From Gemmatimonadota bacterium (GTDB taxonomy: Bacteria; 4572-55; J002), in assembly GCA_003697105.1 (NCBI GenBank), contig RFFQ01000105.1:1-32279 (forward strand): a stretch of DNA of 32,279 nucleotides. Direction: 5' to 3'. Below, piece after piece: positions 3,190 through 23,108 of the stretch. Each line of letters begins with the position of its first letter. Positions within the stretch are counted from its first letter, which is position 1. Under the pieces are notes generated by a model that was given only the letters and a program-made list of their open reading frames with translations, had not been told where the DNA came from and did not search any database. Position numbers and translations under genes: made by a program.

Positions 3190-3214
3190 AAAAAATCAGT
3201 CGCAACCATGCGAC
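3190..3214 (-). promoter_or_regulatory. Terminator-like hairpin in the leader of the Hpt gene
   Basis: On the minus strand GTCGCA-TGGT-TGCGAC (3214-3199) forms a 6-bp stem with a 4-nt loop. It is followed by TGA and six T (3195-3190), ending 24 nt before the ATG at 3165. It lies between the promoter and the gene, so it could act as an attenuator. A further GTCGCA copy sits at the predicted transcription start (3249-3254). The stem is short, so termination may be weak. Confidence 0.45.
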
Positions 3215-3258
3215 AGCTAAGAAAACATGGGCGATATGAGATATAAGATGCGACTAAT

Positions 3259-16823: not shown

Positions 16824-17294
16824 TTAACGACCCTTTAAGCGCTGTTCGTGGGTTTGAAGAATCTCAAATGCTTTCTCCGCGGTGGAAGCTTCCACCAGTT
16901 TTTGATAAAATTCAGGGGTTTCGACTAAACGGGCAATTTGCGCCATTGCCGCAATATGCTCGCTCACATTTTGAAGGGGAGAAACTAGCAAAAATACCAA
17001 ATGTACGGGATTGCCGTCTTTCGCTTGGTAATCAAACCCTTTTTTAGAAATACCGAGGGAGCCAACCAATTTATTGACCAGATTCGTCCGGGCGTGCGGA
17101 ATGGCGACTCCGGGTGAAATGGCAGTATTCATCTTGATCTCGCGGGCTTCAATCTCCTCTAAAATCCGTTGGGGATTTTCAATCCGTTTGGTATCGGCTA
17201 ATCGTTGAACGAGTACCTGAAACACTTCTTTTTTTTGGCGAGTGCGAAGATTGGCATCAATCACATCAACATCAAACAACTGGGTAAGCAACAT
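16824..17294 (-). CDS. PTS EIIA domain protein, PtsN/fructose type
   Basis: 156 residues, one EIIA type 2 domain. The phosphorylatable histidine is H67 in the GVAIPHART motif. The next segment, 'VHLVFLLVSPLQNVSEHIAAMAQIARLV', matches EIIA(Ntr)/EIIA(Fru). No EIIB, EIIC or HPr gene is adjacent, so it is more likely a regulatory EIIA than part of a sugar permease. GGAAAG precedes the ATG. It is transcribed from the promoter at 17358-17386 and followed at once by the Ig-like lipoprotein. Confidence 0.9.
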   Translation of the reverse strand: MLLTQLFDVDVIDANLRTRQKKEVFQVLVQRLADTKRIENPQRILEEIEAREIKMNTAISPGVAIPHARTNLVNKLVGSLGISKKGFDYQAKDGNPVHLVFLLVSPLQNVSEHIAAMAQIARLVETPEFYQKLVEASTAEKAFEILQTHEQRLKGR

Positions 17295-17457: not shown

Positions 17458-17486
17458 TTGACAGGTATCGAATCATGTTATAGAGT
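17458..17486 (+). promoter_or_regulatory. Sigma70-type promoter for the giant surface protein
   Basis: TTGACA (17458-17463), 17-bp spacer, TAGAGT (17481-17486), with a predicted start near 17493. The resulting leader of about 270 nt is long for a single structural gene. Confidence 0.65.
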
Positions 17487-17696
17487 GAATACCTTACCAG
17501 AATGAATGGTGTTGGACGGATGTAAATCTATTTGATTTTTTCGTTGGATTTCAATGGGAAGGAAGTCGCATAATGTATAGTTTGGGAGTGGTGTTCCCAT
17601 GGGTTCGGATGTACTTCTATCGATTACCAACCCCAACGTTCCATGTGATGCGGCAGATGGTGTTGCTCCAGTAACATTTAATTCGGTGTAAACAGA

Positions 17697-17736
17697 CCTT
17701 TCGAGATTAGACGTTCGCGAGAGGTTTTCTTTTTTT
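17697..17736 (+). promoter_or_regulatory. Terminator-like hairpin just upstream of the giant gene's ribosome binding site
   Basis: CCTTTCG (17697-17703) pairs with CGAGAGG (17718-17724), including one G-U pair, and can extend by A-U pairs into the T-run. Loop of 14 nt, then TTTTCTTTTTTT (17725-17736). It sits 15 bases before the AGGAGG at 17751-17756. It could be a conditional (attenuator) terminator or the end of a short leader RNA; the long loop makes it only moderately stable. Confidence 0.45.
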
Positions 17737-17760
17737 CACTCAATGTATTTAGGAGGTTTT

Positions 17761-20700
17761 ATGCGTTATTTTTTTGTGTTTGTCGCGGCTCTAGCACTGA
17801 TGCTGGGTCCGGCATGGGCGGCTGATTTTATTTTAACAACCGCTGATGAACCGGTCGTGGAAGACTTTGCCACATTTGAAGGTGCCGGTTTCGCCCCAGA
17901 ACCCGGAACGGGTCAACTGGATTCCGATAGTTGGATTGCAACCGGGCTTTCCGATGGGGACATGATGTACGGCGGTACGTATGACAGCGGTGATTATGCC
18001 AAAGGGATGTCCGATGGCAGTGTCACCAGTGGCGGAATTTATGCCTTTCATACCGGTGGTGGCAATTATGGCTTAGGTGTCCAGCCGACCGGTAGTGACT
18101 GGTCTCCCGGCACGTTTGATCTGCGCATTCTCAACAGCACCGGTGAAACCTTGACCTCACTAGATGTCAGTTACAACCTGTGGGTCAATAATGATGCGGA
18201 TCGCGGCAATAGCTTTGACCTCTACTATTCCACCGATGGGGAAACCTTTTTGGAAACCGGTCTGACCTATATCTCACCGGAAGCGGCAGATGGTAACGGC
18301 TGGGTATCCAATCCGTTTAGCACCACGCTAGCGGGTCTCACGGTGGATGATGGTAGCTATATCTATCTGCGGTGGCACAGTGATGATATGGTAGGTGGTG
18401 GCTCCCGCGATGAATTCGCCCTTGATGATGTCAGTGTGACCGGTATGTCCGGGCAAATTAGTGGGGCGGTCATCGAAGCCGACCCCGCCAACCTTGACTT
18501 CGGGAGTGTGGATGTGGGAATGTCCGCCACGCTGAGTACCGTTATCTCGAATACCGGTAACCAGACCTTGACGATCAATAGTGTGGAGATTGATAATCCC
18601 GCATTTACCACAGAGGTCAGTGCTCCGTTTACCATCGCTCCGGGGGGTAGTGAGAGCATCAGTGTGACTTATACCGCCAATGATGCCGGTGAAGCGAGCG
18701 GTACTCTGACCCTCGATAATACGTCGATCAATAATCCGATGTTAGGGGTGGACTTGGTTGGATTTGGTGTCCCGACGGTTGTTACACCCATTGGTGATAT
18801 TCAGGCAGACCCCGCCAGTTATGACGGGCAAGTCGTACGGATTGAAGGGGTCGTCACGGCGGGCTCCGGTCTGTTGCACGGTAGCCGTACCAACGTGTTT
18901 GTGCAAGATGATTCCGGCAGCGGAATTATGCTATTTGATTTTAATTTGATCTATCAGACCGAGTTGGTACGCGGTAATGAGGTGCGTGTAGTCGGTGAAG
19001 TGACCGAATACGGCGGTGGCTGTCCCACAACGGAAATCACGAATTTTACGGTGGAAGTCCTCTCCTCTGGTAATCCAGAACCGGCACCTATCGTCTTGAG
19101 TACGGGTGACGCTGGCGGCGCAGACCCTGCCTTGTACGAAGGCACGTTGATTCAATCCGCCGGAATGATCAACGATGTCTTTTATGTCGGCGGTGGTACT
19201 AATATCACCATCAACGATGGTAGCGGGGATGCGGTCTTCCGGGTATGGGACAATACCGGTATTGATTTAGAAAATGTCGAAGTCGGTATGATGGCAACCT
19301 TGACCGGTGTGGCCTCCTGCTTTAACGATGCCCCGCAATATTTACCTGCCTATCAAGATCAAATTGAAATGGAAGCCGTCACCGACCCGCTGATTACTGT
19401 CGATCCGATGAGTATCGATTTTGGTCCGGTGGATGTCGGGGGTTCGGCGGATGCAATAGTGACTATCAGCAATACCGGCGGGGCGACGCTTTCTATCGCC
19501 GGATTGAGTACCGATAATGAGGTCTTCACTGTGGATGTGAGCGCGCCGATTGACATTGAACCGGGGATGTCCACCAATGTGACCGTGACCTTCAGCCCAG
19601 ATATGGCAGATAATTTTACGGGCATGTTGACCATCACCAGCAACGCCGTGAATTCTCCGGTGGTTGAGGTGGCGCTGAGCGGTCAAGGCGTGAATGTGGG
19701 AGATGTACCGGCACTGGTCATCAATGAAATCATGCAGAATCCCTCCATGGTGAGTGATGGTCAAGGCGAATGGTTTGAGCTTTACAATGCCGGTGCGGAA
19801 GCCGTTAATCTGGAAGGCTGGATTGTCCGGGATAATGATGATGACTATTTTGAGATCAGCGGGCTGCTTTCCATCGAACCGGATGGATATTTAGTGCTCG
19901 GTATCAATGCCGATTTTAACACGAACGGCGGTGTTAATGTGGATTATGAATATCCGGTGGAGTTTGGCTTGAGCAACAGCGCCGATGAAATCGTCTTGCT
20001 GATGCCAGACCTCACCGAAGTGGACCGGGTGGAGTATGACGGTGGTCCCGAGTTCCCCGATCCGAATGGAGCGTCCATGTCGTTGATTAGCCCTGCGCTC
20101 GATAACAACGTAGGAGAAAACTGGGCAGAAGCAACAACCCCGTGGGGTGAAGGTACCGACCTCGGAACCCCGGGTGCCCCCAATGACGTCGGCGGTGAGG
20201 GAGTGATTATCACTGTCGATCCGGCAGACCTCGATTTTGGCACCGTTTTCGTCGGTGAAACCGCTTCTGCCACGCTGATGATCACCAATATGGGGACGGC
20301 AACCTTAACGATTTCTGAAGTTGTCATTGATGAACCGGTCTTTTCCACCACCGTTATCACCCCGCTGGAAATTAACCCGGGATCAACCTTCAACATGACC
20401 GTGCGCTTCTCACCGGATGCGGAAGGGGAATTTAGCGGGTCCCTCACGCTGATCAGCAATGCCGATAATGCACCGGAACTGGTCGTGCCGTTAATGGGTG
20501 TTGGACAAGCGGCGCTGGAACCGGTACCGATCAGCGAAATCCAAATGGACCCCGCTTCTTTTGAAGGACAGACCGTCATGATTGAAGGGGTCGTAACCGA
20601 TGGGGCTGGTGTGACCAATGATTTTCGCCTAAATGCCTTTATTCAAGATGATTCGGGCTACGGCATTATGCTGTACAATAGCTCCTTGATTTATGAAACC

Positions 20701-23031
20701 GAACTGGTGCGCGGCAACGAAGTCCGGGTCACCGGAACCGTGACCGAATTTGCCGGCGGTTGTCCGACCACGGAAATTACCGACTTTACGGTAGAAGTGC
20801 TTTCCTCTGGTAATGCGGAACCGGCACCGCTGATCCGTACAACCGGCGAAGCCGGCGATCCGTCCGTGTTGGCGTATGAAGGAACGCTGATCCAATCCAC
20901 CGGGACGATCACGGATGTGTCCGGTACGGGTAATGTCAACATTACGATTGATGATGGCTCCGGTAGCACGGTCTTCCGCGTCTGGGAATCCACTGGCATT
21001 GACCTGAGTGAGGTACAAGTAGGCCGAACGGCAACACTGAGAGGGATTATCTCGTGTTTCAGTGGCAACCCGCAACATCTGCCCGCCTATCAAGATCATA
21101 TTGAAGTGGAAGTCAGTGCCGATCCATTGATTGGGGTCGAACCGGCGGCAATGGATTTTGGCAGTGTGCTTGTCGGTGAATCTGCTGTTGAGATGGCAAC
21201 GATCAGTAACAGCGGCGGTAGCACCTTGACCATCAGTGACATTGCAAGTGATAATCCCGCCTTTACGGTTGATGTTAGCACGCCGATTAATATCGAGCCG
21301 GAAGAGAGTGTAACCGTTGATGTCACGTTTAGCCCCGATATGGCAGGTGAGTTCAGCGGTATTTTGAGCATCACCAGCAACGCGGGGAACTTCCCGGTGC
21401 TGGAAGTCGCCTTAAGCGGGATAGGATATGAACCGGTGGAAATTCGGGATGTGGTCTTCACCGAAATCATGTATAACCCGTCCAGCGAACAAGGTAGCGA
21501 TGAGTTTTATGAATACGCCGAATTGTACAATAATGATACCGAACCGGCAGACCTCTCCGGCTTTGAGTACAAAGATAATGTCGATGACCATATCTTTGTG
21601 TTGCCAGCAGGTACGATTTTACAACCGGGTGAATATTTAGTGCTCGCGGCTAATGCCGATTCGATTCGCGCCTATTACGGGATCGATAATGTGATCGGGG
21701 ATGTGGGCATTGCTTTAAATAATGGCGGCGATGCCGTGCGGCTGTTTGCCCCAGATGGTCAACTGGTAGATGCGGTGACCTTCACGGATGACCCGCCGTG
21801 GCCCGTGGAAGCGGACGGTCAAGGTCCGGCACTGGAACTGATCGATCCCAATCTGGATAATTCGTTGCCGGAAAATTGGACGGTCTGTGCCTTTGGAGGC
21901 ACGCCGGGCATGGAAAACTGCGGCAATCTGGAAACCTATTCGATTTCAGGAATGGTGACGTACGCGCTGGGCGATAATCCACCCGTGCCGGAGGTGATAG
22001 TCTCCAGTGGGGAGTACATGGGCAATAGTGATGCGGATGGAATGTACATGATCACCGGTGTGCCGGCAGGCGAATACACCTTTATCGCCGAACGGACACC
22101 CAGTGTGGACCCGGCACAAGGTATCAGTGCGTTTGATGCGGCACGAGTCGCACAATATTCTGTGGGAAGTTATGATTTTGATGAATATCAACTTATCGCC
22201 GCAGATGTAACCGGTGACGGTAGTATCTCGCCGTTTGATGCCGCCCGAATTGCCCAATACGCCATTCGCTTGCCACAAAGCAGCCGTGCTGGGGAGTGGG
22301 CGTTTCTGCCGGAAAGTTACACCTACGCCCCCCTCGAAATGGATATGGTGGATCAGGATTTCACGGCGATTTTGTACGGCGAAGTAACCGGAAACTGGTC
22401 GCCTTCTGCCGCAGCGCGGGCAAGCAAACACCAAAACGTAGAAATTCGGAATCAGGAAGCCGGTGTCCGCGTGGTTGGCAACCAGATTCAACGAGTTGAT
22501 GAGGTAGATGCGGTGATCGCATTTCAGTTTGTCCTGCGCACCGAGACGGATCCGCAACTGGCACAAAATGTTCCGGCAGATTGGACGTTGATCCACCACC
22601 GGTTTGAAGATGGCACGGTGTCCGTTGCCGCGTTTGGGGTGACTCCCCTCAGCGGTACGGAACTTTTGGATGTCTCCGCAGAGACGGAAATCCTCGCCGG
22701 GCAGATCAATGAACACCCTGCAAAAGTGCTGGCGACAATCCATGTGCCAGAGCAGGTTACTTTGCATCAAAACGTACCGAATCCGTTCAATCCCAAGACC
22801 GCGATCCGGTATGAATTGCCCCAATCGATGGCAGTCCATCTGCAGGTGTATGATGTCGCCGGTCGTTTGGTACAGACCTTACTCGATGGTGCCACCCAAG
22901 CGGCCGGTCAATATACGGTGGAATGGAACGGCACAGACCTAAGTGGGCAACCGGTAAGTAGCGGTCTCTATTTTTACCGTTTGGAAACCGGTGAATTTAC
23001 GGACATGAAGTCCATGATTTTACTCCGCTAA
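17761..23031 (+). CDS. Giant modular secreted protein: ASH, OB-fold and lamin-tail domains, dockerin, NPFNP-type sorting domain
   Basis: 1756 residues. The start at 17761 is set by AGGAGG four bases upstream and a clean signal peptide (MRYFFVFVAALALMLGPAWA). Approximate order: N-terminal beta-sandwich (21-235), ASH/choice-of-anchor D ('DFGSVDVG', 239), OB-fold like that of secreted nucleases (339-540), ASH (541), lamin-tail domain (649), ASH (816), OB-fold (919), ASH (1119), lamin-tail domain (1226), carboxypeptidase-regulatory-like domain (1393), dockerin-type calcium repeats (1446-1503; the second loop DVTGDGSISPFD is canonical, the first degenerate), an unassigned spacer, and a C-terminal domain (1667-1756) starting 'LHQNVPNPFNPKTAIRYELP'. 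That domain suggests export and anchoring at the cell surface. OB-fold and lamin-tail domains often accompany extracellular nucleases, but no nuclease domain is present. A strong terminator follows. Confidence 0.9.
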   Translation: MRYFFVFVAALALMLGPAWAADFILTTADEPVVEDFATFEGAGFAPEPGTGQLDSDSWIATGLSDGDMMYGGTYDSGDYAKGMSDGSVTSGGIYAFHTGGGNYGLGVQPTGSDWSPGTFDLRILNSTGETLTSLDVSYNLWVNNDADRGNSFDLYYSTDGETFLETGLTYISPEAADGNGWVSNPFSTTLAGLTVDDGSYIYLRWHSDDMVGGGSRDEFALDDVSVTGMSGQISGAVIEADPANLDFGSVDVGMSATLSTVISNTGNQTLTINSVEIDNPAFTTEVSAPFTIAPGGSESISVTYTANDAGEASGTLTLDNTSINNPMLGVDLVGFGVPTVVTPIGDIQADPASYDGQVVRIEGVVTAGSGLLHGSRTNVFVQDDSGSGIMLFDFNLIYQTELVRGNEVRVVGEVTEYGGGCPTTEITNFTVEVLSSGNPEPAPIVLSTGDAGGADPALYEGTLIQSAGMINDVFYVGGGTNITINDGSGDAVFRVWDNTGIDLENVEVGMMATLTGVASCFNDAPQYLPAYQDQIEMEAVTDPLITVDPMSIDFGPVDVGGSADAIVTISNTGGATLSIAGLSTDNEVFTVDVSAPIDIEPGMSTNVTVTFSPDMADNFTGMLTITSNAVNSPVVEVALSGQGVNVGDVPALVINEIMQNPSMVSDGQGEWFELYNAGAEAVNLEGWIVRDNDDDYFEISGLLSIEPDGYLVLGINADFNTNGGVNVDYEYPVEFGLSNSADEIVLLMPDLTEVDRVEYDGGPEFPDPNGASMSLISPALDNNVGENWAEATTPWGEGTDLGTPGAPNDVGGEGVIITVDPADLDFGTVFVGETASATLMITNMGTATLTISEVVIDEPVFSTTVITPLEINPGSTFNMTVRFSPDAEGEFSGSLTLISNADNAPELVVPLMGVGQAALEPVPISEIQMDPASFEGQTVMIEGVVTDGAGVTNDFRLNAFIQDDSGYGIMLYNSSLIYETELVRGNEVRVTGTVTEFAGGCPTTEITDFTVEVLSSGNAEPAPLIRTTGEAGDPSVLAYEGTLIQSTGTITDVSGTGNVNITIDDGSGSTVFRVWESTGIDLSEVQVGRTATLRGIISCFSGNPQHLPAYQDHIEVEVSADPLIGVEPAAMDFGSVLVGESAVEMATISNSGGSTLTISDIASDNPAFTVDVSTPINIEPEESVTVDVTFSPDMAGEFSGILSITSNAGNFPVLEVALSGIGYEPVEIRDVVFTEIMYNPSSEQGSDEFYEYAELYNNDTEPADLSGFEYKDNVDDHIFVLPAGTILQPGEYLVLAANADSIRAYYGIDNVIGDVGIALNNGGDAVRLFAPDGQLVDAVTFTDDPPWPVEADGQGPALELIDPNLDNSLPENWTVCAFGGTPGMENCGNLETYSISGMVTYALGDNPPVPEVIVSSGEYMGNSDADGMYMITGVPAGEYTFIAERTPSVDPAQGISAFDAARVAQYSVGSYDFDEYQLIAADVTGDGSISPFDAARIAQYAIRLPQSSRAGEWAFLPESYTYAPLEMDMVDQDFTAILYGEVTGNWSPSAAARASKHQNVEIRNQEAGVRVVGNQIQRVDEVDAVIAFQFVLRTETDPQLAQNVPADWTLIHHRFEDGTVSVAAFGVTPLSGTELLDVSAETEILAGQINEHPAKVLATIHVPEQVTLHQNVPNPFNPKTAIRYELPQSMAVHLQVYDVAGRLVQTLLDGATQAAGQYTVEWNGTDLSGQPVSSGLYFYRLETGEFTDMKSMILLR
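18479..21930 (+). repeat. Two long tandem protein modules (ASH-OB-ASH-LTD twice)
   Basis: The stretches 18479-20210 and 20211-21930 encode the same domain order. The OB-fold parts (about 18775-19370 and 20517-21110, offset about 1740 bp) are clearly similar over their length, with shared pieces such as ELVRGNEVRV and GGCPTTEIT and mostly synonymous third-base changes. This indicates an older in-frame duplication of about 575 codons. The lamin-tail copies have diverged more. Confidence 0.8.
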
Positions 23032-23074
23032 ACGCGGTTTCATGCCACCGGTTTTTGCCGGGTTCAGATATGGA

Positions 23075-23108
23075 CGCGCTATGTTCTTCGGAATGTAGCG
23101 CGTTTTTT
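23075..23108 (+). terminator. Strong intrinsic terminator after the giant gene
   Basis: A 12-bp stem (23075-23086 with 23091-23102, two G-U pairs) closed by a UUCG tetraloop on a C-G pair, followed by six T (23103-23108). It starts 44 bases after the stop codon. Confidence 0.92.

Follow-up and report, generated by a model that had tools for sequence, protein, structure and literature searches.

What does a terminator-like hairpin do between the promoter and the start codon of a very long secreted-protein gene? The question is raised by a contig of 32,279 nt from a Gemmatimonadota bacterium (the window; its genome is G000 below). The protein combines choice-of-anchor D/ASH repeats, an OB-fold, two LTD (lamin-tail) stretches and a dockerin-like stretch, and its C-terminus is a FlgD-like Ig / T9SS type A sorting tail. 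The features of the locus are collected in Table 1.

The leader and its hairpin

The earlier note had placed about 270 nt between promoter and start codon, and this is confirmed: from TTGACA-17-TAGAGT (17458-17486) the transcription start is inferred at about 17493, which lies 267 nt from the ATG at 17761 and gives a leader of 267-268 nt. By eye, TTGACA with a 17-nt spacer is also found 5' of the Hpt kinase gene, the PTS EIIA gene and a TPP riboswitch leader in another stretch of the genome (L071). The second element of that description, a stem and then a U tract shortly before AGGAGG, was likewise borne out. The core stem has 8 bp (A17696-G17703 / C17718-U17725, one G-U), two extra pairs reach into the U tract in the fold, 14 nt lie between the arms, where the fold places two inner pairs, and a 14-nt gap follows TTTTCTTTTTTT.

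Table 1. Features of the giant-gene locus (window coordinates)
Feature	Position	Strand	Basis or remark
Divergent neighbour, PTS EIIA type 2 protein	16824..17294	-	gene call and domain match
Sigma-70-type promoter-like site TTGACA-17-TAGAGT of the giant gene	17458..17486	+	10/12 consensus matches
5' leader, ~268 nt (267-268)	17493..17760	+	start inferred from promoter
Possible leader ORF, 33 codons, translation putative	17573..17674	+	codon score; length as by chance
Possible leader ORF, 30 codons, translation putative	17599..17691	+	stop ends 2 nt before hairpin
Terminator-like hairpin in leader	17694..17727	+	core 17696-17703 / 17718-17725
U tract TTTTCTTTTTTT	17725..17736	+	sequence
Shine-Dalgarno AGGAGG	17751..17756	+	sequence; 14 nt past U tract
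1756-aa secreted protein	17761..23031	+	domain matches; N-terminus signal peptide-like by eye
Hairpin 3' of the giant gene's stop codon, likely 3' terminator	23072..23105	+	strong stem -20.8 kcal/mol, short T tail, d = -1.9

Since the neighbouring PTS EIIA gene is divergent, the hairpin was rejected as the terminator of an upstream gene. A downstream promoter for the giant gene was also rejected, no second promoter-like site being detected at the scanner's threshold on the + strand between 17486 and the start codon. With a divergent neighbour and no promoter-like site from hairpin to start, transcripts of the giant gene should therefore cross the hairpin.

Terminator strength was expressed as a d'Aubenton-Carafa-type score d. 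With d = 8.4 the leader hairpin ranks as an intrinsic terminator; when the leader was dinucleotide-shuffled 300 times, five shuffles lay above 0 and none came up to this value. In the hairpin run used for the T-run/AGGAGG places described below it has -13.9 kcal/mol. Folding energy taken by itself sets the segment 17685-17770 only slightly apart (z -1.55, with 10 of 200 shuffles folding equally well). At gene 3' ends of the same genome d exceeded 0 in 36 of 194 cases (20 stretches and the window), and the likely 3' terminator of the giant gene itself has a negative d, so that the score misses some likely terminators. A consensus terminator scanner did not list the leader hairpin (2 sites vs 2.6 expected over the whole 2-kb region), probably because of its loop limit of 8. 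Judged by its sequence score, the hairpin is terminator-grade and more than a product of chance, and it gives the locus one of the features of an attenuator, an intrinsic terminator between promoter and start codon.

Leaders were surveyed in the window and 20 further stretches of G000, a non-random sample of about 9% of the genome picked around sorting-tail genes and places with a terminator before a Shine-Dalgarno sequence. Genes were taken from crude ORF calls with a minimum of 80 aa; small genes in L087 and L069 escaped these calls, and for at least two genes containing an in-frame TGA (L075, L084) the start was set wrongly. Among divergent 5' leaders (gap of at least 100 nt, gene of at least 150 aa, n = 48), d exceeded 0 in 3/48 on the sense strand vs 0/48 antisense. 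These three are the window leader, the TPP riboswitch leader of L071 and L087, where the hairpin is, by eye, the 3' terminator of an acyl-carrier-protein-like small gene below the gene-caller minimum. A simpler hairpin rule returned 5/58 divergent regions in sense vs 0/58 in antisense orientation, and 8/64 vs 1/64 for co-directional regions; the five divergent ones are the window leader, L071, L087, the Hpt kinase gene and L070 1829, whose hairpin overlaps its own promoter. Among divergent sorting-tail genes, one of eight from the G000 sample and one of ten from the genome G001 have such a hairpin near the start, a feature that is thus not general to secreted proteins. The pattern TTTTTT, 3-33 bases, AGGAGG, 3-9 bases, ATG gave 41 rows in the genome vs 3 in a backward control; some rows overlap, and loci were obtained for 30 of them, representing 25 distinct places. 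Five of the 25 show a hairpin of at least -12 kcal/mol in strength ahead of the T run. The TPP leader is among them; the remaining four (L033, L045, L054, L056), with a co-directional gene or a tRNA on their upstream side, are possibly ordinary 3' terminators.

Two further upstream regions, those of 14387 (+) in L073 and 1829 (+) in L070, carry inverted repeats that start within the -10 hexamer, with T-rich sequence after them; these could be operators or very early terminators.

The same layout had been claimed for the Hpt kinase gene of the window. A hairpin does exist there (3199-3214, - strand), but it is a poor terminator (d = -24.1 with a 6-bp stem; best in the region -8.8) and the leader is much shorter than that of the giant gene, which leaves a loose likeness. 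In the Hpt-kinase leader (3199-3214 and 3249-3258, both - strand) GTCGCA occurs twice, at the inferred start and at the hairpin. Both copies can pair with one TGCGAC, and the fold, which began upstream of the inferred start so that part of the arm may be untranscribed, prefers the long-range pairing. This leader is possibly a two-state attenuator or a DNA operator.

Folding of the leader and its short reading frames

The folding energy of alternative structures, a check proposed in the earlier note, spoke for the stability of the hairpin itself and not for a competing antiterminator. In the energy model the terminator stem forms at a probability of 0.998. Its 5' arm pairs upstream at a mean probability of 0.19, which 95 of 100 shuffled leaders equal or better, and 94 of 300 shuffles match its best duplex with the leader (-14.4 kcal/mol). 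The energy model thus revealed no antiterminator in competition with the stem. A mutually exclusive antiterminator is typical of two-state RNA switches, and not every attenuator released by a protein or a ribosome requires one. The TPP leader, used as a control, was likewise non-significant: its 5' arm is paired upstream at 0.73, yet 29 of 100 of its own shuffles match this, which makes the upstream-pairing test weak.

Over the whole leader the folding z was -0.43 (17493-17763), -0.65 (17493-17692) and -0.97 (17493-17740), and the 200 nt ending 50 nt 5' of the start (z 0.08) place the leader sixteenth among 26 measured in this way. Lower values come from two spans of 60 nt, one from 17553 (z -2.47) and one from 17673 (z -2.7), the latter including the hairpin. 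By these energies the overall folding of the leader is ordinary. For comparison, the TPP aptamer alone has z -0.34 and its leader with terminator z -2.03; a low z is hence not required of an aptamer. In the model, the part of the leader 5' of the terminator forms a single closed domain in which the terminator takes no part. The modelled leader shows no two-state RNA switch; termination by default, relieved by a protein, a ribosome or an aptamer that escaped detection, fits better.

These data also bear on whether there is regulation at all, as a leaky stem might simply stabilise the mRNA or cut expression by a constant factor. Ordinary folding energy, the lack of a competing structure and a d that is modest beside the TPP terminator (8.4 vs 41.0) would all suit such a stem. 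We nevertheless regard it as unlikely, given that d > 0 is otherwise nearly absent among divergent leaders, where the other two of the 3/48 are explained.

A ribosome could act through the 30-codon ORF, whose translation would put it on the 5' arm of the terminator and let the polymerase pass. The stop codon of this ORF ends so close to the hairpin that the 5' arm would lie under a ribosome terminating there, and a weak GGAG start signal is present. Its codon score of -1.9 bits stands at about the 95th percentile of random ORFs (-1.9), but under the 5th percentile of real coding slices (1.2); the 33-codon ORF, with -1.3 bits, is similarly placed near the random (-2.2) and below the coding (1.8) limit. 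Moreover, 260 of 500 leader shuffles contain a longest ORF of at least 33 codons, and the 30-codon frame has no run of one codon kind. Control by a leader peptide appears very improbable to us.

Relatives of the leader and the sorting-tail genes

Rfam 15 was applied to 7 of the 20 G000 stretches (125,089 bases), the window and three short spans, and TPP and 2'-dG-II were additionally searched in the whole genome. At gathering score nothing was found in the window, and known Rfam classes were rejected as the identity of the leader. Up to E = 10, the segment 17300-17800 gave PhrS alone, at 9.2 bits vs a gathering score of 37. 6S RNA (RF00013) was rejected as well, its one match in G000 lying at contig C165 and none in the window.

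Promoter and terminator might instead bound a stand-alone gene for a small RNA of about 240 nt, or for a small protein, with the giant gene reached by unregulated read-through. A leader domain that is closed and terminator-independent in the model resembles a free RNA, and terminated small genes before larger genes do exist in this genome (acyl-carrier-protein-like in L087 and ferredoxin-like in L069, both named from sequence by eye, and a tRNA in L072). Against this, the 14 nt from U tract to AGGAGG leave no room for a promoter and none was detected upstream within the leader, so that the giant gene would lack a promoter of its own. The RNA is not 6S, and the PhrS score is far from its threshold. 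As for a small protein, both ORFs have codon scores intermediate between random and coding sequence, and the length of the longest does not exceed that seen in shuffles. We consider a stand-alone gene improbable.

A covariance-model search in related genomes had been suggested as a further check, and it returned no second copy of the leader in 60 genomes or 41 stretches. At the DNA level, too, the leader found itself as sole match among the 60 genomes, of which G001 alone shares the class; in G000 and G001 at E <= 10 it met short chance pieces (E 0.3 to 10) and no second copy. The covariance model, R1, consists of the single leader sequence entered twice. It scored 303.8 bits on itself and at most 16.7 bits elsewhere in the 60 genomes or 22.1 bits in the 41 stretches. 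The other matches span 21 to 196 bases, and at least three of them (L071 13888, L083 8997, L095 2340) lie across the ends of called genes and probably represent ordinary terminators.

A leader common to sorting-tail genes was rejected, as no shared element was seen by eye in 30 upstream regions of 34 such genes in the G000 sample, the remainder being cut by stretch ends. A leader of similar layout occurs in G001 before a sorting-tail gene of 1326 aa (L095); its inferred length is 217 nt, and it has a hairpin and a T run ending 46 nt before the start. This leader was rejected as a relative (alignment score 19.0 vs a mean of 18.9 for 300 shuffles), and it has no Rfam match near gathering score.

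The giant protein itself gave 13 pattern matches and no relative when residues 1-513 were used to scan a collection of genome contigs. Partial matches in G001 reach 49% at best (residues 648-819), and many fall on the sorting tail. A scan for a close relative with a RarA-like protein gave at best 62% identity among the best 80 of a larger number of loci. Matches to the giant protein number 131 in G000 and 181 in G001, counts that include its other domains and come from scoring 150 first-look candidates per genome; they point to large sorting-tail repertoires.

One member of this repertoire is preceded by a riboswitch match. The class 2'-dG-II was found at L070:5882-5956 (-), equivalent to G000:C45:25882-25956, with 65.2 bits (gathering 60), 114 nt before the gene of a 1188-aa sorting-tail protein with Exo_endo_phos nuclease, LTD and PKD domains. 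It is the single match in the whole genome of G000, and G001 as a whole has none. Genes 3' of this class include endonuclease I and ComEC according to the available text of PMC8872408, and a logic of DNA scavenging would fit. Since the match precedes a sorting-tail gene, control by RNA would not be out of place for secreted-protein genes of G000.

Two other sorting-tail genes, in L084 from 3445 (-) and in L075 from 13668 (+), have an in-frame TGA at the start of a CxxC-like motif. The contexts are W-TGA-ATC and W-TGA-VYC, with a thioredoxin-like reading by eye, and from these sequences both are likely selenoprotein genes. Matches to tRNA-Sec over the cut-off lie at G000:C25:11702-11795 (63 bits) and C145:10563-10648 (52 bits); matches to this family also occur in 14/14 control genomes, over the cut-off in five of them.

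An attenuator model and known leaders

The promoter-like site, the leader length, the terminator-grade hairpin, its position and the divergent neighbour are read from the sequence. From these we propose, with about an even chance of being right, that the leader is a promoter-proximal transcription attenuator, which terminates by default until a protein, a ribosome or a ligand releases it. The polymerase would start at about 17493 and make a leader RNA of about 240 nt, and the hairpin with its U tract (17694-17736) would halt most transcription by default. Read-through, which would yield the 5.3-kb mRNA of the 1756-aa secreted protein, would occur where the stem is kept from forming, whether by protein binding, by a ribosome situated on the leader or by some aptamer state invisible to energy folding. 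Termination in the cell, the regulated read-through and the kind of signal are what the model supposes.

The earlier note had gone further and suggested that the leader may be a riboregulator of unknown class. The terminator within the leader is well supported, and a TPP leader of like layout exists in the genome. A class of its own is conjectural, as the searches gave a single copy, the overall folding is ordinary and the energy model revealed no competing antiterminator; the riboregulator reading as such is plausible. That the leader stands for an undescribed class of riboswitch or RNA-binding protein, sensing the state of the cell surface or medium and gating this type IX-type protein by antitermination, seems to us a long shot. 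It is probably an example of leader attenuation, which, resting on one sequence, we do not file as a new class. If the attenuator model is true, cells of a poorly sampled bacterial group use premature termination to decide on the production of an expensive secreted protein, and their leader would be a ready-made reporter for finding the signal. An orphan leader would then join the TPP and 2'-dG-II riboswitches that Rfam matches place before genes of outer-membrane and secreted proteins.

Long leaders are known from other bacteria. In the available text of PMC7366714, 13.5% of the mRNAs of Bacteroides thetaiotaomicron have 5' UTRs of over 100 nt; about 2% of the long ones contain a predicted riboswitch and some have small ORFs reminiscent of attenuation. 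Those 5' UTRs rest on mapped RNA starts, whereas the window leader is known from sequence alone. For Flavobacterium psychrophilum, the accessible portion of PMC9723704 reports structured 5' UTRs, leader-peptide candidates and riboswitches. Searches of open-licence literature by topic rather than by host organism, among them type IX secretion with riboswitches and untranslated regions, brought up no description of the window leader in the available text.

Another parallel is the cap gene of Bacillus thuringiensis, in which, as given in the available part of PMC4933901, a c-di-GMP riboswitch stands before a surface protein gene. Both loci thus place an RNA leader before such a gene; unlike cap, the window leader has no c-di-GMP riboswitch match. 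The family c-di-GMP-I (RF01051) had no match in G000 or G001, nor in any of 14 control genomes, so that its absence is not shown. A likeness also exists within G000, where the TPP riboswitch leader (RF00059, L071 18815-18911) precedes the gene of an outer-membrane protein with TonB-dependent receptor plug and CarboxypepD_reg domains. That leader differs in its recognised aptamer (73.8 bits) and its stronger terminator (d = 41.0), both missing from the window leader. Its order of promoter, inferred 200-nt leader, hairpin with T7, AGGAGG and start codon is common to both, and in this sequence layout the window leader resembles a riboswitch leader of its own genome.
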